From the NCBI GenBank assembly GCA_028278645.1, contig JANQDZ010000026.1, positions 1-39,022 of the forward strand: DNA of 39,022 bases, given 5' to 3'. Every line of letters begins with the position of its first letter. Position 1 is the stretch's first letter. The DNA is from Longimicrobiales bacterium. GTDB lineage: Bacteria; Gemmatimonadota; Gemmatimonadetes; Longimicrobiales; Gaopeijiaceae. The position numbers and the translations under genes are program-made. The notes under the pieces were generated by a model. The model was not told the DNA's origin. It made no database searches and was given only the letters and a program-made list of their open reading frames with translations. Below are positions 10,857-34,694 of the stretch, piece by piece.

Positions 10857-11215
10857 TTGGGCATCCCGGGCCCGCCCACTTCTCCCTCCACCCAGCGGAG
10901 GTAAGGCTCGTGGCCATCTGTAACTGGAACTGCTAGGAATTCCGGAACCTCGTACGGATGCAGCTCAGTCACCCTCTTTCTCAGGGCCGCCACCACATCC
11001 CTGGTGGTCTTGAAGATCACGAGGGCCTCGCTGTCCTCCTGAATCTCCCCATCCCAACGATACACCGATATCAGCCCAGGGATCACGTTTCCGCACGCCG
11101 CCAGGTGTTCCTGGACAACCCGTCGTGAGAGGGTCATGCCTGTGTCCAGATCCGGAACGGTAACCAGGACGACACACACCTCCGTCCCGCCTGAGTAGGT
11201 TCCAGCAACCATCAC
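10853..11215 (-). CDS. cutA: Divalent-cation tolerance protein CutA
   Basis: 120 residues, the normal length for this trimeric signal-protein-like family. The family core is clear: VVLVTVPD near the start, LAACGNVIPG with SVYRWDGEIQ, then EALVIFKT and ELHPYEVPEFLAVPV with a final YLRWV. CutA was named for copper and divalent metal tolerance in Escherichia coli, but its biochemical role is not settled. Both ends overlap neighbours by 4 nt (the acyl-CoA ligase gene upstream and the TPR gene downstream), so it sits inside a translationally coupled operon. Confidence 0.95.
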   Translation of the reverse strand: MMVAGTYSGGTEVCVVLVTVPDLDTGMTLSRRVVQEHLAACGNVIPGLISVYRWDGEIQEDSEALVIFKTTRDVVAALRKRVTELHPYEVPEFLAVPVTDGHEPYLRWVEGEVGGPGMPK

Positions 11216-13065
11216 TCAACCTCCACAAAGACATCGACCTCCAGGTTGGCGGGGTCATAGAACCGCTCGATGAGTGCCCCATACCGTTCTCGGACCACCC
11301 TCCTCTTCACCTTCTGGTTCGGGGTGAGGATCCCCCCTTCGATTGTAAACTCCTCTTCGATAATTCCGATCTTTTTCGGCCGCTCGTAACGCGCGAGGTC
11401 ACCGAGCAGCCCGAAGATCTCGGCACTCAAGTGCTCCTGTACCTTCCTCTGCGTCAGCAGCTCGCGGCGGTTCTCGGTCGCGAGGCCAGCTGACTTTGCC
11501 CAACCCTCCAGACAAGGAAAATCGGGCACCACGAGCAGCGCGGGGAAATGCCTTTGATCTCCAATCATCACTACCTGGTCAACGAAGCGATTCCCCTTCA
11601 CGAGGTTCTCGATGGGGCCTGGCGCGATGTTCTTCCCCCCTGCAGTGACCAAGAGGTTCTTTTTCCGATCAGTGATACAGAGGTGTCCGTTCTCATTGAT
11701 TTCGCCAATGTCCCCTGTGCGGAACCACTGGTCGTCGTCGAATGCTGCGGCGGTATCCTCCGGCCGATTGAAATACTCCTTCATCACCTGCGGCCCCCGA
11801 ACCAGGACCTCTCCATCTTCCGCGATACGGATTTCTGTCCCCGGGATGGGCGGTCCTACCGTCCCGATCTGGAAGTTGTCCGGTGAGTTGTGGGTCACGC
11901 CCGGGGAGGTCTCCGTTAGCCCATAGGCCTCGAGAATCAGGATGCCGGCGGAAAAGAAGAACTTGTTGATGTGCGGGGCCAAAGGTGCTCCGCCGCTCAC
12001 GAAGAACACCATGCGGCCGCCCAGGGCCTCATGGATTTTCCTGAAGAGGAGAGCGTGAGCGAGGCGATAAACGCCTCGCAGAACCAGGGTCGGCCGACGT
12101 CCCGAAAGTGTCTCTTCTGCCCAAGCTTCTCCCACCTCCCGCGCCCACCGCACCACGAACTTCTTCGCGCCTGACTGATCCATCACCGCCTGGTAGAACT
12201 TCTCGAAAACCCTCGGAGCTCCCACCACCTTGGTGGGTTTTGTGATCTTCAAGTCTTCCGCGATGGTCTTCACTCCCCGTCCGTAAGTGATGGTGGCCCC
12301 CTTTGCGAAGAAGACCAGGTCCACCATCCGCTGGAGGATATGGGAGAGGGGCAGGAAGCTCAGCGTCACGTCGGTTTCGTCGACGGGGATCACCTTCGTG
12401 AGGGCCGTCGCATTGGAGAACAGGTTGTTGTGGGCAAGGACCACCCCCTTCGGATCTCCCGTGGTCCCCGAGGTATAGAGGATCGTGGCCGTGTCCTCCG
12501 GTTCGGCTGAGAGGGCCTCGCCGCGAAACTCCTCGGCTGATCTTTTTTCGGCCTCCTGGTGCCCCTTTTCCAAGAACCCCTGCCAGGTCAGGACGCCCTG
12601 GGGCAACCCCTCGATGGGATCGAGGACCACCACCACCGGAGCCGATTCGAGGGCCTGGATTGCCTCATTGGCTTTCTGAAGCTGTTCCTCGGTGGAGACA
12701 AAAACCGCCTTTGCCCCTGAATCGCCGAGGATATAAGCGATCTGCGCCGAGGTGAGAGTGGTGTGAATCGGAACAAGGGGGACGCCGGCACAGAGGGCGC
12801 CGTAGTCGGTTTGGGACCACTCGAAGCGATTCTCGGAAAGGATTGCGCATCTGTCCCCCCTTTTAAGCCCCAGAAAGGCGAGGCCGCCGGCGATATCCCT
12901 GATCCGGGGCAGGACCTCCCCGAAGGTCAGTTCCTCGAACCCGGAATCGGTGATGGTCCGGAATGCAATTCTCTCCTCGAACCGGTCAACAGAATCGAAG
13001 AAGAGTTGCGTGACCGTTCCTTCAGGGACCGGTATCCGGTTGGCCAGGTAGTCGCGAGTCCCCAC
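11212..13065 (-). CDS. Long-chain acyl-CoA synthetase (AMP-forming)
   Basis: 617 residues from GTG 13065, preferred over the GTG at 13071 because AAGGAG then lies 7 nt upstream rather than 1. The adenylate-forming signature ILYTSGTTGDPKGVVL is followed by EAYGLTETSPG, WFRTGDIGEI and CITDRKKNLLVTAGGKNIAP, which cover the ATP, AMP and hinge motifs of the family. Length and order fit the FadD15-like (membrane-associated long-chain) ligases that make acyl-CoA from fatty acid, ATP and CoA. It is the first gene of a chain of 4-nt overlaps with CutA, the TPR gene and the macro gene. Substrate chain length is not fixed by the sequence. Confidence 0.92.
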   Translation of the reverse strand: MGTRDYLANRIPVPEGTVTQLFFDSVDRFEERIAFRTITDSGFEELTFGEVLPRIRDIAGGLAFLGLKRGDRCAILSENRFEWSQTDYGALCAGVPLVPIHTTLTSAQIAYILGDSGAKAVFVSTEEQLQKANEAIQALESAPVVVVLDPIEGLPQGVLTWQGFLEKGHQEAEKRSAEEFRGEALSAEPEDTATILYTSGTTGDPKGVVLAHNNLFSNATALTKVIPVDETDVTLSFLPLSHILQRMVDLVFFAKGATITYGRGVKTIAEDLKITKPTKVVGAPRVFEKFYQAVMDQSGAKKFVVRWAREVGEAWAEETLSGRRPTLVLRGVYRLAHALLFRKIHEALGGRMVFFVSGGAPLAPHINKFFFSAGILILEAYGLTETSPGVTHNSPDNFQIGTVGPPIPGTEIRIAEDGEVLVRGPQVMKEYFNRPEDTAAAFDDDQWFRTGDIGEINENGHLCITDRKKNLLVTAGGKNIAPGPIENLVKGNRFVDQVVMIGDQRHFPALLVVPDFPCLEGWAKSAGLATENRRELLTQRKVQEHLSAEIFGLLGDLARYERPKKIGIIEEEFTIEGGILTPNQKVKRRVVRERYGALIERFYDPANLEVDVFVEVE

Positions 13066-13158
13066 TGCCACTCTCCTTCCTCGTCTCGTGGGTGCGGGAC
13101 ACCCCTGGTTCAGAGTCCTACCGCGGCACGCGAACGGCAGAAAAGCCTGCTTCGATCC

Positions 13159-22429: not shown

Positions 22430-22993
22430 TTAGACGTCAATGGCCGGCGGTTCTTCAGGGCTCAGCGCGATCCTTGCGGCGTCCCGGACCACCTCACGGG
22501 CGTTTTCATAATCCAGAGCGTCAACCGCTTGGAGGAGCGGAACCCAGCGACAGTCGGTGATTCCTTCCGCTTCCTGGGGAACCGGCTCCCCGTCCCTCGA
22601 GACCATGAGAAAGAAGGTGCAGTACTTGTGGATGAGCCTACCCCTCAAGCGAAAGTACCAATCGATGGTTCTGAGCTTTTGTCCCAAGACCAGGTCTTTC
22701 AGACCCGTTTCTTCGGACACTTCCCGTAGTCCAGCTTCAGCGGGGCCTTCGGTACCCTCCAGATGACCCTTGGGAAGTCCCCAATTCCCGTAGGGATCCT
22801 TTATGAGGAGGGCATGGATGCGTCCACCGATCCGGCGGATTACGACCCCACCGGCGCTCCTTTCGGGCCGAGCACCCCGATCCTCCTGAACTCCGGAACG
22901 GGCGCTCTTTAACTGCGGCGGGGCCTTTTCAGGGTTCGCAGGAGAATGGGCCGAGGGGGGGGCATGAGCCTCAGAAGATCGAGAGTCGGACAT
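22430..22993 (-). CDS. Nudix hydrolase
   Basis: 187 residues. The Nudix box runs from Gly76 to Leu98, with the pattern GX5EX7REVXEEXGL and its metal-binding Glu residues intact. It is preceded by the usual WGLPKG. The N-terminal 45 residues are low-complexity (Ser, Pro, Ala), so the true start could be further in. The class hydrolyses nucleoside diphosphates linked to another moiety; the short form resembles diadenosine polyphosphate or (d)NTP hydrolases, but the substrate is open. The start overlaps the mlaD-like stop by 23 nt, placing it at the end of the Mla operon. Confidence 0.88.
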   Translation of the reverse strand: MSDSRSSEAHAPPSAHSPANPEKAPPQLKSARSGVQEDRGARPERSAGGVVIRRIGGRIHALLIKDPYGNWGLPKGHLEGTEGPAEAGLREVSEETGLKDLVLGQKLRTIDWYFRLRGRLIHKYCTFFLMVSRDGEPVPQEAEGITDCRWVPLLQAVDALDYENAREVVRDAARIALSPEEPPAIDV

Positions 22994-23975
22994 ACCGCTG
23001 GGGTCGCTCCTGGAGGTCTCTGAGTAGTGCAGTCAGCTCTCCCAGAACGCCCTGGGCCTGCGCGACCAGAACAGTGTCGCTCATGAGTTGGCCTAGGGCC
23101 CCTTCCCCCGATTCGATCTGGGCCGTCATCCGGTCCAGCCGGGCGAAGGTCGAATCGATCCGAATGATCATGCCTTGAGCGCCCTGAGTCGCTGTGGCAA
23201 GCTCTCCGGACAAGTCCTTGAGGTTCGAGATCGTCGCCCGTGCATCATTCAGGGTGGAATCCGTTCCCGGGGCCCCCAGGAGGGCCTCAGCCCGCTCGAA
23301 GACCAGATGGGCCGTGTGGGCAGCTGTTCCCAATTCCCTTGCCGACTCCTCAAACTCGGACGCCAGCTCCGACACGGCTCCGGCCTGCGCCTCCATCAGC
23401 TGTCGCAGCCGTTCACTCACTTCCTGTACGTTGTCGATGGCCCGGCTGAGGTTTCTGGCTGTTTCCTCCGTAAACGCCTCCTCGACCCGTTCCGTCAGGG
23501 CGGCCATATCCTCGGAGATCCGATCTGCGGCGGCGGTGAGTCGGGAGAACTCGGGAAGGGCATACCCCCCAAGCAGGTCAGGATTATCTGGGTCGTTGGG
23601 GCTGAAAAAGCGGAACTGAGTGTTGGGTTCAACGCTGGGGTCCACGATCTCCGCTTGCCAGTCGCCGAACATGTTCTCGGGAGCCAGGAGAACCGCGCTG
23701 TTCGAAGGGAGTTCGACCTGGTCCCTGATCCTCATCCTGACCCGGACCGCCGCTCCATCTTCTTCCACGCTGATCTCTTCTACCCGGCCAATGTTCACGC
23801 CACGGAACTTCACCGCATTCCCGTCCATCAGCTGGCCGACCTGGGTGAAGAGGGCTTCGATCTCGCGGGTACCCCGACCAAAGCTCGCATCTTGGAGCCA
23901 AAGTGTGCCCAAAACCGCGGCCACCACCCCGGCTACGATGACCACTCCCACCATGATTTCTCTTCGGCGTGTCAT
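22971..23975 (-). CDS. mlaD: MCE-domain lipid transport protein (MlaD-like)
   Basis: 334 residues. A single N-terminal membrane helix (IMVGVVIVAGVVAAVLGTLWL) is followed by an MCE domain (residues about 33-115), recognised by VGQLMDGNAVKFRGVNIGRVEEI. The remainder is long alpha-helical coiled-coil sequence (about 145-330), longer than in E. coli MlaD (about 180 residues) and like the longer MCE proteins of other diderms. It is anchored in the inner membrane and would form the periplasmic ring. GGAGGGAGCAGG lies just before ATG, and the ATG overlaps the ATPase stop by 4 nt. Confidence 0.9.
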   Translation of the reverse strand: MTRRREIMVGVVIVAGVVAAVLGTLWLQDASFGRGTREIEALFTQVGQLMDGNAVKFRGVNIGRVEEISVEEDGAAVRVRMRIRDQVELPSNSAVLLAPENMFGDWQAEIVDPSVEPNTQFRFFSPNDPDNPDLLGGYALPEFSRLTAAADRISEDMAALTERVEEAFTEETARNLSRAIDNVQEVSERLRQLMEAQAGAVSELASEFEESARELGTAAHTAHLVFERAEALLGAPGTDSTLNDARATISNLKDLSGELATATQGAQGMIIRIDSTFARLDRMTAQIESGEGALGQLMSDTVLVAQAQGVLGELTALLRDLQERPQRYVRLSIF

Positions 23976-24721
23976 CCTGCTCCCTCCAGGAGCTCCGGTT
24001 TCCCTTCGATGAACCCCTTCACGATGGGATCCGGACAGGCCTGGATCTCATCGGGGGTACCCAAAAAACGGATCACACCATCGTGAAGCATCCCGACTCG
24101 GTCAGCGACACGGTAAGCGCTCTCCATGTCATGCGTGATCACCACTGACGTGACCTCCAGCTCCTCCCGGGTCCGAATGATGAGGCGGTCGATAACCGTG
24201 GTGGTTACCGGATCCAACCCGGTCGTGGGCTCATCGTAAAGCAGGTACTCGGGCCGCGTAGCGATGGCCCTGGCCAAACCGGCCCGCTTCTTCTGTCCGC
24301 CGGACAGTTGAGACGGATACCTGCTCTCATACCCCTCCAACTCCACCAGTGCCAAACATTCTCGCACCCGCCGCGAGATGGCCTCATCTGTAAGTTCGGG
24401 CATTCGCCGGAGTCCCAAGCCCACGTTCTCCCCGATGGTCAGGGAATCGAAAAGGGCGGCGAACTGGAACACATACCCTACGTTCCTCCGAACCTCATAG
24501 AGACCTTCGAGGTCCATGTCTCCGACATTCTTCCCATCCACCCAAACCTCGCCGCTATCTGGCCTCAACAAACCCACCACATGTTTCAGAGCGACCGACT
24601 TCCCGGTCCCGGATTGACCGACGATGGCTAGAGTCTCACCCGGCTGGACTTCGAGGGAGAACCCCTTGAGGACCCGATTCGATCCGAACGCCTTGTGGAC
24701 GTCTTTCAGGAGAATACTCAC
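23972..24721 (-). CDS. mlaF: Mla-type ABC ATPase (MlaF-like)
   Basis: 249 residues from GTG 24721, which overlaps the TGA of the permease gene (GTGA); the longer frame is antisense-like within mlaE and rejected. Walker A GQSGTGKS is at 35-42, the signature is LSGGQKKR, Walker B YLLYDEPTTGLD, and the switch His is in ITHDMESA. MlaF-type ATPases power lipid movement between inner and outer membranes with MlaE and MlaD. Gene order and coupling (E-F-D) match the family. Confidence 0.94.
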   Translation of the reverse strand: MSILLKDVHKAFGSNRVLKGFSLEVQPGETLAIVGQSGTGKSVALKHVVGLLRPDSGEVWVDGKNVGDMDLEGLYEVRRNVGYVFQFAALFDSLTIGENVGLGLRRMPELTDEAISRRVRECLALVELEGYESRYPSQLSGGQKKRAGLARAIATRPEYLLYDEPTTGLDPVTTTVIDRLIIRTREELEVTSVVITHDMESAYRVADRVGMLHDGVIRFLGTPDEIQACPDPIVKGFIEGKPELLEGAG

Positions 24722-25503
24722 AGCAGGGTCGCCGCCCAGAAGGCGTCCAACACGAGGATCACCATGCTGCTGACCACTACTGCCCTGGTGGTGGACAGGC
24801 CCACACCCTCGGCTCCGCCCCGAGTGGTGAACCCGAAGAAGCACCCGATGGAGGTGATCGTGAGTCCAAAACTCAACGACTTGATCACCGCAAATTTGAC
24901 GTCCCAGTCGTCGAAGAAGAGTCGCAGCCCTTTCATGAACTCCGGGGTAGACATGTCCAAGAGATAAAGGGAGGTTCCCCACCCGGCGGTGATGCCGATG
25001 GCCGTCGCCAGAATCACCACCACGGGAACCATGATGAGCCCTGCAAGGACCCTGGGAACCACCAGGTAGGCGACGGGATCATACGCCAGGGTTTCAAGGG
25101 CATCGATCTGCTCGGTGACCCTCATGGTTCCGAGTTCAGCGGCGATGTTGGCCCCCACGCGCCCCGACAAAGCCAGGCCGGTGAGAACCGGCCCCAGCTC
25201 GAGAATCATGGTTTTCCCAACGAGTGTGCCGACAAAATAGAGAGGGACCGCTCCGGTGAAGGTGTATGATGCCTGGAGCGCCATGACGACGCCGGTGAAG
25301 CTCGCGATGAAAAGCGCAATCGGAACGGAATCCACTCCGATCTTCGCGAGCTGTCCGAGGAGGAGACGGCCCCAGATATCCACCCGCTGGATACCCCGGA
25401 GGGTTTGGAGGCCCAAGCCACCCCACTGCCCGATTTGAGCGGCGGTATCCACAGCCGTTCGGCCAAGCCAACGGAACGGGTCCAGCAAAATGTTTAATCT
25501 CAT
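24718..25503 (-). CDS. mlaE: Mla-type ABC permease (MlaE-like)
   Basis: 261 residues with about five to six membrane helices and an amphipathic N-terminal helix. The family motif MILELGPVLTGLALSGRVGANIAAELGTMRVTEQIDAL (given in part here by its key residues E, G, R and the EQIDAL turn) is clearly present around residues 100-137. It is an integral inner-membrane protein, first gene of the Mla set, followed by mlaF with a 4-nt overlap. No MlaB or MlaC gene is in the window. The direction of lipid transport cannot be derived from sequence. Confidence 0.94.
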   Translation of the reverse strand: MRLNILLDPFRWLGRTAVDTAAQIGQWGGLGLQTLRGIQRVDIWGRLLLGQLAKIGVDSVPIALFIASFTGVVMALQASYTFTGAVPLYFVGTLVGKTMILELGPVLTGLALSGRVGANIAAELGTMRVTEQIDALETLAYDPVAYLVVPRVLAGLIMVPVVVILATAIGITAGWGTSLYLLDMSTPEFMKGLRLFFDDWDVKFAVIKSLSFGLTITSIGCFFGFTTRGGAEGVGLSTTRAVVVSSMVILVLDAFWAATLL

Positions 25504-29843: not shown

Positions 29844-31354
29844 TCTGCGGCGGCACCCCGGTCTTCGGTCATGGCCCTCATAAGGTCGTCCGCCTCCTGG
29901 GGAGGCCTGGTCACTAGACTCACCGTGACCGTGGCGATCAACCCGAGGAAAAAGGCAGGGATCAGCTCATAGAGTAGGGCGTCGAGCCGCGGAGTCAGAG
30001 TCCAGACGAACGTGACCACCGTTCCGGTTATGAGGCCCGCGAAAACCCCGGCCCGGGTCAGGCCCTTCCAGTAGAGGGCGAGGATGGAGGTGGGCCCCAA
30101 CGCCGCCCCCAGGCCGGCCCAGGCAAACAACACCAACCAGAAAACCAGGGTCTCCGCCAGCCACCCGAGAATCAAAGCCACCACCACCAGGAGGGCCACG
30201 GTGATCCGGGAGTAGAGAACCAGCTGGCGCCGGGGAATCTCGGTATCTCTCCGGACCACTCTCTGATAGAAATCCCTTACCAGTGCTGATGCGGCCACCA
30301 GTAGTTGGGAATCGGCGGTGGACATGATGGCGGCAAAGATGGACGCCACCACAATCCCGAAAAGCACCGGGTGAAGGTGCAACTGGGCCAACATGGGATA
30401 GAGGTTCTCCGTATCAGCCGCAAGGAGTTGGTCCACTGCCGGGAAGTAGATCCGGCCGGCCATTCCGACCAGGACTGCCCCCGCTCCCATCACCACGTTC
30501 CAACTCGTTCCGACCCAAGCCGCCCACCTCAGTTGGGCAGGGTCCTTGATGGACATGTAACGGACCAGGATGTGTGGGTTCCCAGGAGACCCGAGCCCGA
30601 TTCCAACGAATCCAACCCAAGCCCCGAAACCCAGGGAAATGGGATCCACAAACGCCGGATCATAGGCTCGGAGGTCGGACATGACCGGTCCCCAACCCCC
30701 GCCCACCGAGATCGCAACGATGGGGAGGATCACGAGGCCCACCATCATGAAAAGAGCCTGGAGTGTGTCGGTGAGGCTTACCGCGAGAAAGCCTCCCATC
30801 ATGGTATATCCCAACACGATGGCGGCGGTCAGGAGCACTCCGGTCCACTGGGTCAGGCCGAAGCTGGCCGCCATGGCCTTCCCACCCCCCACGAACTGGG
30901 ACGCAACGTAGACCACCATGAACGTGAGGATCACCAGGGCGAGGGTGAGGCGGAGTTTCCCGTCATCGTCACCGAAGCGAGCTGCGAAAAAATCCGGGAG
31001 GGTAATGCAGTCGTGTCGCTCGCTGAAGATCCTCAGTCGCTTGGCATACGTGAGGAAAAGAATGAGCTCGGCGGCCGTGTACCCCGACACCGCCCACAGG
31101 GCCGAGGCTCCCATGGCATAGGCCATGCCGGTGACCCCCAGGAGCAACCAAGCGCTTCGCCCTGACACGACCGCAGAAAGGGCCACGACAAACCGGTTCA
31201 TGCGTCGGCCGCCGACAAAAAACTCGCTTATTCCCTCAGAGGAGAAGCGGGAGGAATAAACACCGATGCCCAGAAGCACGAAGAGGTAGGCCAAGAAGGA
31301 TCCTACCGCAGACCCGTCCACCGCGATCTGTGCCGTTATGGCACCTTCTTGCAT
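29840..31354 (-). CDS. Sodium:solute symporter (SSS family)
   Basis: 504 residues with about 13 hydrophobic helices. The layout and motifs (EFFVGGRRMNRFVVALSAVVSGRSAWLLLG, GYTAAELILF, then YTMMGGFLAVSLTDTLQALFM and the ASIFAAIMSTADSQLLVAASAL segment in the later helices) are those of the PutP-type SSS transporters. It is an inner-membrane Na+-coupled uptake protein; the substrate may be proline or another amino acid, which sequence does not fix. It starts 28 nt after the DAK2-DegV stop on the same strand. The 3' end overlaps the convergent gene by 4 nt. Confidence 0.93.
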   Translation of the reverse strand: MQEGAITAQIAVDGSAVGSFLAYLFVLLGIGVYSSRFSSEGISEFFVGGRRMNRFVVALSAVVSGRSAWLLLGVTGMAYAMGASALWAVSGYTAAELILFLTYAKRLRIFSERHDCITLPDFFAARFGDDDGKLRLTLALVILTFMVVYVASQFVGGGKAMAASFGLTQWTGVLLTAAIVLGYTMMGGFLAVSLTDTLQALFMMVGLVILPIVAISVGGGWGPVMSDLRAYDPAFVDPISLGFGAWVGFVGIGLGSPGNPHILVRYMSIKDPAQLRWAAWVGTSWNVVMGAGAVLVGMAGRIYFPAVDQLLAADTENLYPMLAQLHLHPVLFGIVVASIFAAIMSTADSQLLVAASALVRDFYQRVVRRDTEIPRRQLVLYSRITVALLVVVALILGWLAETLVFWLVLFAWAGLGAALGPTSILALYWKGLTRAGVFAGLITGTVVTFVWTLTPRLDALLYELIPAFFLGLIATVTVSLVTRPPQEADDLMRAMTEDRGAAAD

Positions 31355-31382
31355 TGGAGAAGCTCTCCCGGCGGAAGGGGTG

Positions 31383-33203
31383 TCAGTCTTCGAGGAGGAA
31401 CGTGATGGCCCAAGCCCCTATCCCTACGTGGGTGGAGATCACCGGAGTGGCCGCGGCAGACAGGATCTCCACTTCACCGTATTCGGCCCGGAGGGCTGGG
31501 GTGACTTCTTCTACAATTCCCGGGCATCCTACGTGAACGATTCCGAACCGGAGTCGCTTTGCCCCGTCAGGAATCCGCTTTCTGAGGGCGTTCAGCACCG
31601 CAGGCATCATTCTCTTCCTACCGAAGGCTCGCCCAGCCGGTTCGGTGGCGCCACCGTCGTTCGGGACCCAGAGGACCGGTTTCAGCCCCAGGAGGCTAGC
31701 CATCCAAGCTTTCCCCCGGCCCACACGCCCCGAGGCCATGAGCCGGTCGAAGCGATCCACCGTCAGCACGATGCCGGACTGGCTCCTGATCCGATCCAGT
31801 TCCTGAACGATCTTCATGGGGGAGTGGGCCAACTCGGCCAACTCGGCGGCTTTGACCACCAAGAGGCCCTCCAGTAGGGAGGCCCCCAGGCTGTCGACCA
31901 GGTGAACCGGGGCACCGTCGAAGTGGAATGCGGCTGCCTCGGCCGACGCGAACGTCCCCGAAAGGTTGGACCCGGCCATGACTCCCACCACTTCCTCCGC
32001 CTCTTCAGCCGCCCGCCGGTAAGCCTCGATGAAAGCCCCGGGAGCCGGTTGGGACGTGGTCGGGAGCTCCCCCGGTTCCCGCAAAGCCTCGTGGAATTCT
32101 TCAGCTGTGATATCGACGCCGTCCCGGAGGGTTTCCTCCCCCCGGACCAGGATGAGAGGAACCACCTTGATGCCGTGGGCTCGGACGATCTCTTCCGGGA
32201 GATCACATGCACTGTCGGTGACGATTCCCACCGGCCTCCGGACCATGGTCATGTGGCCGTGAGCGGCACGTTCAGCCCGGTCGTGCTGGGCCTGCATGTC
32301 TTCGGCTTTGTGGGTAACCAGCTTCCCGAGGGTTTTGAGGTAGGCAAAAACCCCGTCGGGGTCGTCCGTGTGGACATGTACTTTTAAGACTCCTTCCGAC
32401 CGAATGACGATCAGGGAGTCACCCATTCCCCGGAGCTCATCCCGTACCGCTCTCTGTTCCGGAAGATCATCACCCCGTACCAACGCTTCTGTACAATACC
32501 TGAATCGCTCAGCTTCCGGCGGGTATTCGACCTGACCTACGGCCGGAGCTGTCTCGGTAAAGGGGGCAGGAGGATCCGAGGACACGGCTGACTCACCCTG
32601 AATATACCCGACCACACCTTCCAGAAGGTGGACAAACCCCTTCCCTCCCGCGTCCACGACCCCGGCCTTCTTGAGCACCGGCAGGAGGTCCGGCGTGCGG
32701 TCCAGGGAGGCCCTTGCCCGGTCGGCCAGGTGGCTCATCAACTGTTGGAAGTCGTGCGCCTTTGCTTCCAGGGCAGCCACCGCCGTGTCCCTGATAACCG
32801 TGAGAATGGTCCCTTCTACCGGGCGCTCGAGGGCGTTGTGGAGACGATCCGCGCCGGCGTGGAGGGCCGTTCCGAATTCTCGGGGGCAGATCCGAGCCTT
32901 CCCCCGCGTGTGGGCGGCAAAGCCCAAAAGGAAGTGGGAGAGCATCATCCCTGCGTTCCCACGGGCTCCCAGGACGGCGGCCTGAGCCACCTCGTGGGCG
33001 ACGGCGTGGAATTCCCGGTCCCGGTTCTTCCTCAGGTGGTCGGCGATGGCCTGGACGGTCAGGGAGAGGTTAGTGCCGGTATCCCCATCGGGCACGGGGA
33101 ACACATTAATACGGTTCAACTCCCGGCGCTGCCGCTGAATGTACTCGCATCCCGCCAGGAGGGAGCGGCGGAGCCGAGGGCCGTCGAGATAAGCGATCCG
33201 CAT
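31383..33203 (-). CDS. DAK2-DegV fusion: fatty acid kinase with FakB-like carrier domain
   Basis: 606 residues from ATG 33203; the frame runs far upstream, but that is antisense to the propeller gene. Residues 1-210 are a DAK2 kinase domain: NVFPVPDGDTGTN with Mg/ATP-binding Asp39 and Asp41, ARGNAGMMLSHFLLGF and VEGTILTVIRDTA. A FakA-type middle part follows (RYCTEALV, GDSLIVIRSEGVLKVHVHT). From about residue 325 it becomes a DegV domain (VGIVTDSACDLPEEIV, TSQPAPG, MAGSNLSGTFASA), which binds fatty acid in FakB. FakA phosphorylates FakB-bound fatty acid in Gram-positives. Here both parts share one chain, and the FakA C-terminal domain is replaced by DegV. Followed by the symporter gene. Confidence 0.88.
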   Translation of the reverse strand: MRIAYLDGPRLRRSLLAGCEYIQRQRRELNRINVFPVPDGDTGTNLSLTVQAIADHLRKNRDREFHAVAHEVAQAAVLGARGNAGMMLSHFLLGFAAHTRGKARICPREFGTALHAGADRLHNALERPVEGTILTVIRDTAVAALEAKAHDFQQLMSHLADRARASLDRTPDLLPVLKKAGVVDAGGKGFVHLLEGVVGYIQGESAVSSDPPAPFTETAPAVGQVEYPPEAERFRYCTEALVRGDDLPEQRAVRDELRGMGDSLIVIRSEGVLKVHVHTDDPDGVFAYLKTLGKLVTHKAEDMQAQHDRAERAAHGHMTMVRRPVGIVTDSACDLPEEIVRAHGIKVVPLILVRGEETLRDGVDITAEEFHEALREPGELPTTSQPAPGAFIEAYRRAAEEAEEVVGVMAGSNLSGTFASAEAAAFHFDGAPVHLVDSLGASLLEGLLVVKAAELAELAHSPMKIVQELDRIRSQSGIVLTVDRFDRLMASGRVGRGKAWMASLLGLKPVLWVPNDGGATEPAGRAFGRKRMMPAVLNALRKRIPDGAKRLRFGIVHVGCPGIVEEVTPALRAEYGEVEILSAAATPVISTHVGIGAWAITFLLED

Positions 33204-33317
33204 GGTTTCCGAAGATCTAAGAGAGGAGGCTTTTTGGCAACGAAACCCACGGCTAGGCGGCCGGGAATGGACGCTGCGGATGGGCACGTTTGGGTCGCCC
33301 GGGGCGAGGTAGGCCCT

Positions 33318-33432
33318 CACACTTCGGTGTGGTTGAAGAGTCGAACGCTCTGGTTCGTAGGTTATGCGACGTTGCCTCCAAGAGGCAGACCGGGATTGAG
33401 GTTGCGGTTGAATACCAACCCTCTCTAGAGAG
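33318..33432 (+). other. Array of four small hairpins upstream of the propeller lipoprotein
   Basis: In the gap between the DAK2-DegV and propeller genes four short stems occur in series: 33318-33331 (CACAC-TTCG-GTGTG), 33342-33357 (CGAAC/GTTCG), 33373-33387 (TGCCTC/GAGGCA) and 33406-33420 (GGTTG/CAACC). A perfect 12-bp palindrome CTCTCTAGAGAG (33421-33432) lies just before the ATG. They could form a structured leader. No tRNA cloverleaf or known riboswitch was recognised. Confidence 0.35.
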
Positions 33433-33440
33433 CACAGGCT

Positions 33441-34694
33441 ATGAACAAACGGTCGAAGTTCTTGATCCTCCTCCTCCTCGCTCTGGCCATCCCCCTCCTC
33501 CAAGCCTGTGGGGATGCCGGTGCATGGGAGGGAACGATCACAGACAGCGCGGGGGTGGCGGTAGTCCATAACACAGGCACCCCCATGTGGGGCTCCGGTG
33601 ATGAGTGGACGGTTACAGAGGATTTGAAGATTGGTTCGGTGGCAGGAGAGCGCGAGTACCAGTTCGGGCTCCTCGGGCTTTTTGATGTCGCAGCAGACGG
33701 CACAATCTTCGCTCCAGACGTCCAGGCTCAGGAAGTCCGAGCATACGACCAGGACGGGAATTACCTTCGCACCTTGGGTGGGCCCGGCTCCGGTCCCGGG
33801 GAGTTGGCCCTGGGGGCTGCCTTCGTGTTTGTCGGCCCCGACGGGGAGGTGGTTGTACCAGACCTGGGCAACACCCGAGTCAACCGCTACGCCCCGTCGG
33901 GAGAACCCATTGGCAGCTTCCCGATCCAGATCGAGGCCGGGATCCCGGCTCTGTTCGACCTGGACAGCTCCGGCCGCCTGATCGCTCAACTGAGAGGGCT
34001 GGCCGTACCCGGAGTAGCGGCTCTCGAGGACGGTGATCCGTTGGTGGTGTACGACACGACTGGCGTGGTGGTCGATACCTTGGCGCTGCTGCCTAAGGGG
34101 CAAACAGCGGAAATCGTGGGAGAACAGGTTCGGGCTCGCCTTTTCGCCCCCGAACCGGTATGGGAGTTGGACGCGGCCGGATCGATCTTCTACGCCATGA
34201 ACGACCAGTACAAAATCTTCGTGAACGGACCCGACGGAGAGTTGACCCGGATCATCACCAGGGATGTCGCGGCAAAACCCGTCTCAGAAGCGGACAAAGA
34301 GGCGATTTTTGACCTGATGCGAAGGCAATACGCCCAGCTTGGAATTCCGGCGGCCCAGGTGGAACAGGGGCTTCAAACCATCACCTTTTCCGAAACCTTT
34401 CCGGTCTTCGGGGCAGTTTTTACGGGACCGGAGAACACACTGTGGGTGCAGAGGATCCAAACGGCATCTGACATGGCAGACGAAGCGGAAGAAGGGGTGG
34501 AGTTTGATCCTCAGGACCTCGGGTCCCCAGAGTGGGAGGTCTTCGACGCCGAAGGCCGGTACCTGGGGGTCGTGACCTTCCCCGAGCGCTTCAGTCCCCG
34601 GAGGATGAAGGGCGATCAGATCTACGGCGTATGGCGGGACGAATTCGACGTGCAGTACATCATGCGCGTGAAGCTGACCCAGGGGCCGAGTTGA
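33441..34694 (+). CDS. Six-bladed beta-propeller lipoprotein
   Basis: 417 residues. The N-terminus is a lipoprotein signal (KRSKFLILLLLALAIPLLQAC, lipobox Cys23). The remainder is built of propeller-type repeats like GLFDVAADGTIFAPDVQAQEVRAYDQDG and FVGPDGEVVVPDLGNTRVNRYAPSGE, the NHL-like / 6-bladed propeller pattern with D-x-D-G/N turns and Gly-rich loops. Secreted lipoproteins of this kind are abundant in Gemmatimonadota; they bind ligands or partners, but the ligand is unknown. A perfect hairpin terminator follows 30 nt after the stop. Confidence 0.82.
   Translation: MNKRSKFLILLLLALAIPLLQACGDAGAWEGTITDSAGVAVVHNTGTPMWGSGDEWTVTEDLKIGSVAGEREYQFGLLGLFDVAADGTIFAPDVQAQEVRAYDQDGNYLRTLGGPGSGPGELALGAAFVFVGPDGEVVVPDLGNTRVNRYAPSGEPIGSFPIQIEAGIPALFDLDSSGRLIAQLRGLAVPGVAALEDGDPLVVYDTTGVVVDTLALLPKGQTAEIVGEQVRARLFAPEPVWELDAAGSIFYAMNDQYKIFVNGPDGELTRIITRDVAAKPVSEADKEAIFDLMRRQYAQLGIPAAQVEQGLQTITFSETFPVFGAVFTGPENTLWVQRIQTASDMADEAEEGVEFDPQDLGSPEWEVFDAEGRYLGVVTFPERFSPRRMKGDQIYGVWRDEFDVQYIMRVKLTQGPS

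Follow-up and report, generated by a model that had tools for sequence, protein, structure and literature searches.

A Dak2-FakA Middle-DegV Fusion in Gemmatimonadota: A Predicted Single-Chain Version of the Two-Component Fatty-Acid Kinase

Introduction

The fatty-acid kinase (Fak) of Staphylococcus, Streptococcus, and Enterococcus consists of two polypeptides, the kinase FakA and the fatty-acid carrier FakB, and has been described as a Gram-positive strategy (PMC10146087). FakA contains a Dak2 kinase domain, a middle domain with a Cys-His-His site, and a C-terminal domain that is reported to be DegV-like itself. FakB is a DegV protein that holds the fatty-acid carboxylate in a Thr/Ser/His network; several exchangeable FakBs are found, and PlsX and PlsY act downstream. 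Studies of the S. aureus proteins have identified residues that are essential or that contact the fatty acid (PMC9136124, PMC11617999, PMC8892158). In FakA, these include Asp38 and Asp40, which were mutated (PMC11617999), and Cys240, His282, and His284 (PMC9136124), residues that have been linked to a zinc site and a dimer (PMC11617999). In FakB1, Thr62, Ser95, Ser171, and His270 surround the carboxylate, Arg205 takes part in both FakA binding and membrane contact (PMC8892158), and Arg173 is needed for kinase catalysis (PMC9136124). A different arrangement is seen in the glycerone kinase DhaK-DhaL fusion, in which a Dak2 (DhaL) domain is likewise joined to an EDD-fold substrate-binding domain; there, however, that domain is Dak1 instead of DegV and comes first, and the FakA middle domain is absent.

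The protein described here is encoded in a 39,022-nucleotide stretch of a Longimicrobiales genome (the window). It combines the Dak2 kinase, the middle domain with its Cys-His-His set, and a DegV carrier with the carboxylate network and the catalytic arginine, and PlsX and PlsY are encoded in the same genome. Unlike the two-component system, the parts form one polypeptide that lacks a FakA-like C-terminal domain, each kinase has one carrier, and Arg205 of FakB1 is replaced by phenylalanine.

Gene and Domain Architecture

The fusion gene occupies positions 31383..33203 on the minus strand. It is a single 606-codon open reading frame (1821 nt, 606 aa) that opens with an ATG at 33203 and closes at 31383 with its only stop. 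Pfam searches identified the Dak2 (FakA N-terminal kinase) domain at residues 36-197 (32613..33098, 128.8 bits), the FakA-like middle domain (FakA-like_M, PF21645) at residues 234-308 (32280..32504, 75.8 bits), and the DegV (FakB-type fatty-acid-binding) domain at residues 325-603 (31395..32231, 234.9 bits), all on the minus strand, in the same frame, and well over their cut-offs, in agreement with the original prediction of one protein carrying all three. The domains are separated by linkers of residues 198-233 (32505..32612, minus strand) and 309-324 (32232..32279, minus strand). The frame upstream of the ATG is open as far as 34103, but this stretch overlaps another gene (33441-34694, plus strand), and relatives start at the same methionine as the window protein. 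Several long open reading frames overlap the fusion gene on the plus strand (31338-33428), and are probably shadow frames of GC-rich coding sequence.

By NCBIfam models, the N-terminal half belongs with YloV/FakA and the C-terminal half with DegV/FakB. The DegV family model TIGR00762 (EDD domain) was passed with 248.7 bits against a cut-off of 99.7, whereas the equivalog models for FakA (NF038248, 212.8 bits, cut-off 975) and FakB1 (NF038249, 149 bits, cut-off 350) and the YloV subfamily model (314.9 bits, cut-off 396.1) were missed, as was the glycerone kinase model (19.2 bits, cut-off 575).

The FakA-like C-terminal domain (FakA-like_C, PF13684) gave no match, even at E<=1, in any of the 29 aligned Gemmatimonadota members, compared with 294-296 bits in two canonical FakAs. 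The proposal that DegV stands in place of the FakA C-terminal domain thus holds in that a FakB-type DegV domain is present and PF13684 is absent; since FakA_C is itself reported to be DegV-like, the domain exchange is less drastic than it appears.

The original prediction had named a frameshift or assembly join between two genes as the finding that would undo it, and the source genome, at 103 contigs, is a fragmented assembly. When bacterial and archaeal genomes were scanned, 29 relatives were found, all from Gemmatimonadota MAGs (Gemmatimonadetes, Gemmatimonadales, Longimicrobiales). One is cut by a contig end; the remaining 28 are full-length, share 57-88% identity, and have the same architecture, although they come from other assemblies, which rules out such a join. 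The same fusion is carried by three single-contig Gemmatimonadota genomes (G058, G069, and G075). Compared with its nearest relative (L028), the window gene differs at 64, 31, and 314 first, second, and third codon positions, respectively, a pattern that runs through the whole frame and indicates that all of it is under protein-level selection. The probability that a sequencing or assembly error joined two genes is therefore negligible.

Predicted Structure

An AlphaFold2 model built with 29 sequences has a mean pLDDT of 84.8 and a pTM of 0.85, with weak stretches in the two linkers, at residues 207-230 (pLDDT<50) and 316-319. The best PDB matches of the model are FakA_N and FakB1 with bound fatty acids. 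The first domain superimposes on S. aureus FakA_N (Z 34, rmsd 1.2 Å over 206 residues) and, with Z 24, on DhaL structures; the last domain superimposes on palmitate-loaded FakB1 (5uto; Z 33, 2.4 Å over 279 residues). The S. suis FakA chain can be matched domain by domain only, with a TM-score of 0.33 and an rmsd of 29 Å for the whole chain.

Active-Site and Pocket Residues

Conservation of the mapped S. aureus residues was surveyed in 66 Gemmatimonadota fusions, four other fusions, and eight standalone DegV proteins, as well as FakAs. Asp39 and Asp41 of the window protein, which correspond to FakA Asp38 and Asp40, are present in all of the FakAs and fusions surveyed, including 66/66 from Gemmatimonadota. 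Cys237 and His276 (FakA Cys240 and His282) are identical in all 66 Gemmatimonadota fusions, and His278 (FakA His284) in 65 of them. In the DegV domain, Thr383, Ser491, and His592 (FakB1 Thr62, Ser171, and His270) are likewise kept in 66/66, Ser415 (FakB1 Ser95) in 65/66, and Arg493, the equivalent of the catalytic Arg173, in 66/66. The lipid pocket, whose loss would have spoken against a fatty-acid carrier according to the original prediction, is thus retained in 65-66 of the 66 fusions. By alignment, the membrane-inserting helix is also present, with Trp500, Met501, Leu504, and Leu505 at the positions of FakB1 Trp180, Val181, Leu184, and Leu185. Some pocket residues are altered in Firmicute fusions, and the position of His270 is serine in those of Listeria and Enterococcus; a shared architecture therefore need not mean shared chemistry in every case.

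Arg205 has been described as completely conserved among FakBs, and is present in all eight standalone DegVs surveyed. The equivalent residue in the window protein is Phe527. An arginine occupies this position in 30 of the 66 Gemmatimonadota fusions, is lost in the other 36, and is found in none of the four other fusions. Loss of the arginine was considered as a signature of the fusion, since 27 of 29 close relatives lack it, but this was rejected on the basis of the wider set. At least three to five changes at this position are required on the fusion tree, and the loss is kept only as a frequent relaxation. Phe527 is flanked by basic residues (Arg525, Arg529, Lys530, and Arg531), and a positive patch may persist around it.

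Distribution and Evolution

A sample of 150 Gemmatimonadota genomes contained a DegV match in 51 and a Dak2 match in 51, with at most one DegV per genome, and about a third of the sample carries the fusion. Apart from cases at contig ends, the open frames that contain full DegV matches are ~600 aa or longer. In one genome (G143), the DegV and Dak2 parts are on different contigs, the Dak2 part stopping at the contig edge; the partial matches in four others (G049, G077, G017, and G116) are remnants or sit at contig edges. Neither a standalone FakB nor a canonical FakA was found among the 150 genomes: the sampled phylum has the fused form or none at all. A second Dak2 protein in one relative (G128), considered as a candidate FakA, proved to be a glycerone kinase of the DhaK-DhaL type that is carried besides the fusion. 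The gene is missing from two thirds of the phylum, and is therefore not essential there. The single-contig genome G017 lacks Dak2 and retains only a short DegV remnant (C1:2377829-2377996, profile positions 164-218), which suggests that the fusion has decayed.

Occurrence beyond Gemmatimonadota was assessed by searching the proteins of a plasmid collection, in which several entries resemble chromosomes or parts of chromosomes. Proteins in which the three domains follow one another as in the window protein were found in Listeria monocytogenes (WP_077346032.1, 588 aa), Enterococcus raffinosus, and Acetoanaerobium noterae. These Bacillota proteins share ~30% identity with the window protein, and have likewise kept Arg173 and lost Arg205, but differ in some pocket residues and in being scored by PF13684. 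The Listeria strain also has a canonical FakA and a standalone DegV, whereas the window fusion is alone in its genome. Fusobacterium vincentii encodes a four-domain FakA(N-M-C)-DegV protein (845 aa, L047:1995-4529), which resembles the window protein in having kinase and DegV on one chain and phenylalanine at the Arg205 position, but retains FakA-like_C, placed after the middle domain and before DegV. The view of the fusion as a departure from separate FakA and FakB proteins is thus upheld as regards the fusion itself, but it is not unique to this lineage. Literature searches found no paper describing it, although an earlier mention is possible in Kinch et al. 2005 (EDD domain); the Dak2-M-DegV architecture is already deposited in databases, unremarked, the Listeria protein being annotated as "DegV family protein" and nothing more.

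Two further loci from this search bear on gene context. The Listeria fusion gene (L049:2035-6528) lies between DUF2177 and DUF1295 genes, with a photolyase gene adjoining; all share one orientation and may form a cluster for stress responses or lipid modification. On a Thermomicrobium roseum megaplasmid (L052:1-2958), genes for DegV, a glycerol-3-phosphate acyltransferase, and DAK2 are adjacent, providing a genomic link between Fak and PlsY.

In trees of the two protein halves, which have long branches and few outgroups, the Bacillota three-domain proteins adjoin those of Gemmatimonadota, with support of 98/98 for the N-terminal half and 97/90 for DegV, and together they are set apart from canonical FakA or FakB, respectively. 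The DegV domain of the Fusobacterium protein falls among standalone FakBs, so that this is probably a separate fusion. Provisionally, the trees fit an old three-domain fusion that arose once, with the four-domain protein formed in a separate event. It is conceivable, although we advance the idea with some doubt, that Gemmatimonadota and some Bacillota share a tethered lineage of old, single origin, in which covalent linkage replaced FakA_C docking, the C domain disappeared, and the docking arginine was lost repeatedly, leaving a self-contained enzyme that takes fatty acids from membrane to acyl-phosphate and has a single, fixed specificity for them. The Firmicute fusions score 61, 30, and 27 bits with PF13684 (L044, L046, and L049, above the cut-off), whereas the Gemmatimonadota fusions do not score; the Bacillota values may reflect how the Pfam model was built. 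The idea that the fused DegV domain is an intermediate towards FakA_C was rejected, since PF13684 is silent in Gemmatimonadota and a custom FakA_C profile matched no DegV group.

Genome and Neighborhood

In the source genome (4.9 Mb, 95.6% complete), the fusion gene gave the sole DegV match and the sole Dak2 match, so that neither a standalone FakB nor a second FakA was found, and there is one gene each for PlsX and PlsY. The genome further encodes five PF01553 acyltransferases along with eight AMP-binding proteins, which makes conventional activation of fatty acids by ligases likely as well.

The original prediction drew attention to a long-chain acyl-CoA ligase and an Mla lipid transporter in the window. 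Pfam confirmed both, the former as an AMP-binding enzyme (11212-13071) and the latter as MlaE/ABC/MlaD genes (22971-25503); they lie 6-20 kb from the fusion gene. A functional tie between these genes and the fusion was rejected, because they are not conserved beside it: in clustered neighbors of related genomes, no conserved lipid-gene context was found, and the recurrent neighbors are rho and a phosphoribosyltransferase (both Pfam-confirmed), together with rplI/rpsF-like and other housekeeping genes that were named by eye from sequence.

Proposed Function and Alternative Explanations

The window protein is probably a single-chain, self-contained fatty-acid kinase that supplies acyl-phosphate to PlsY and PlsX. 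In the proposed mechanism, the DegV domain would extract a fatty acid from the inner membrane, at its inner leaflet, and bury the acyl tail, while the Dak2 domain would hold ATP and metal. The middle domain, with its Cys-His-His site, would dimerize the chain and complete the active site. The γ-phosphate of ATP would then pass to the carboxylate of the DegV-bound fatty acid, either inside a single chain or between the two chains of the dimer, with the assistance of Arg493, and the acyl-phosphate would be released to the membrane for PlsY or converted to acyl-ACP via PlsX. Flexible linkers would tether the kinase to its carrier throughout. We propose that this tethering is the reason why FakA_C, which holds FakB, is absent and why the docking Arg205 is not strictly kept. 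S. aureus FakA_NL, which has no C domain, still supports Fak activity given a high level of FakB (PMC9136124), making tethering a plausible substitute for docking.

It is unlikely that the DegV domain acts mainly as a sensor or regulator, its bound fatty acid gating a kinase whose substrate is some other small molecule, as dihydroxyacetone is for DhaL. The homology of Dak2 to DhaL, seen in the structural matches and in a weak match to the DhaL model TIGR02365, and the lack of a lipid-gene neighborhood would fit such a role, but the TIGR02365 score (25.6 bits) is far under its cut-off (138.3), the middle domain, which is specific to FakA, is retained with its Cys-His-His set, and the arginine that FakB1 needs for catalysis is invariant. 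It is likewise unlikely that the fusion is only partly self-sufficient, forming acyl-phosphate but also acting as a partner carrier, or depending on one, for example PlsX or ACP. Fak and PlsX belong to one pathway in Firmicutes (PMC10146087) and the single PlsX gene of this genome could provide such a partner; against this, neither the genome nor the sampled phylum has a standalone FakB, so no other DegV carrier is required.

Implications for the Fatty-Acid Kinase Family

How FakB presents the fatty acid to FakA is disputed, with two opposed models and no solved structure of an active complex (PMC11617999). With kinase and carrier fixed at 1:1 and FakA_C absent, the natural fusion lends itself to trapping the FakA-FakB complex, and it allows one to ask what FakA_C and FakB Arg205 do. 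The fusion is real and phylum-wide, and it is probably a single-chain version of the known two-component enzyme. Gemmatimonadota are generally regarded as diderm, and the fusion places a predicted fatty-acid kinase in this phylum, as the only Fak of the genomes that carry it.
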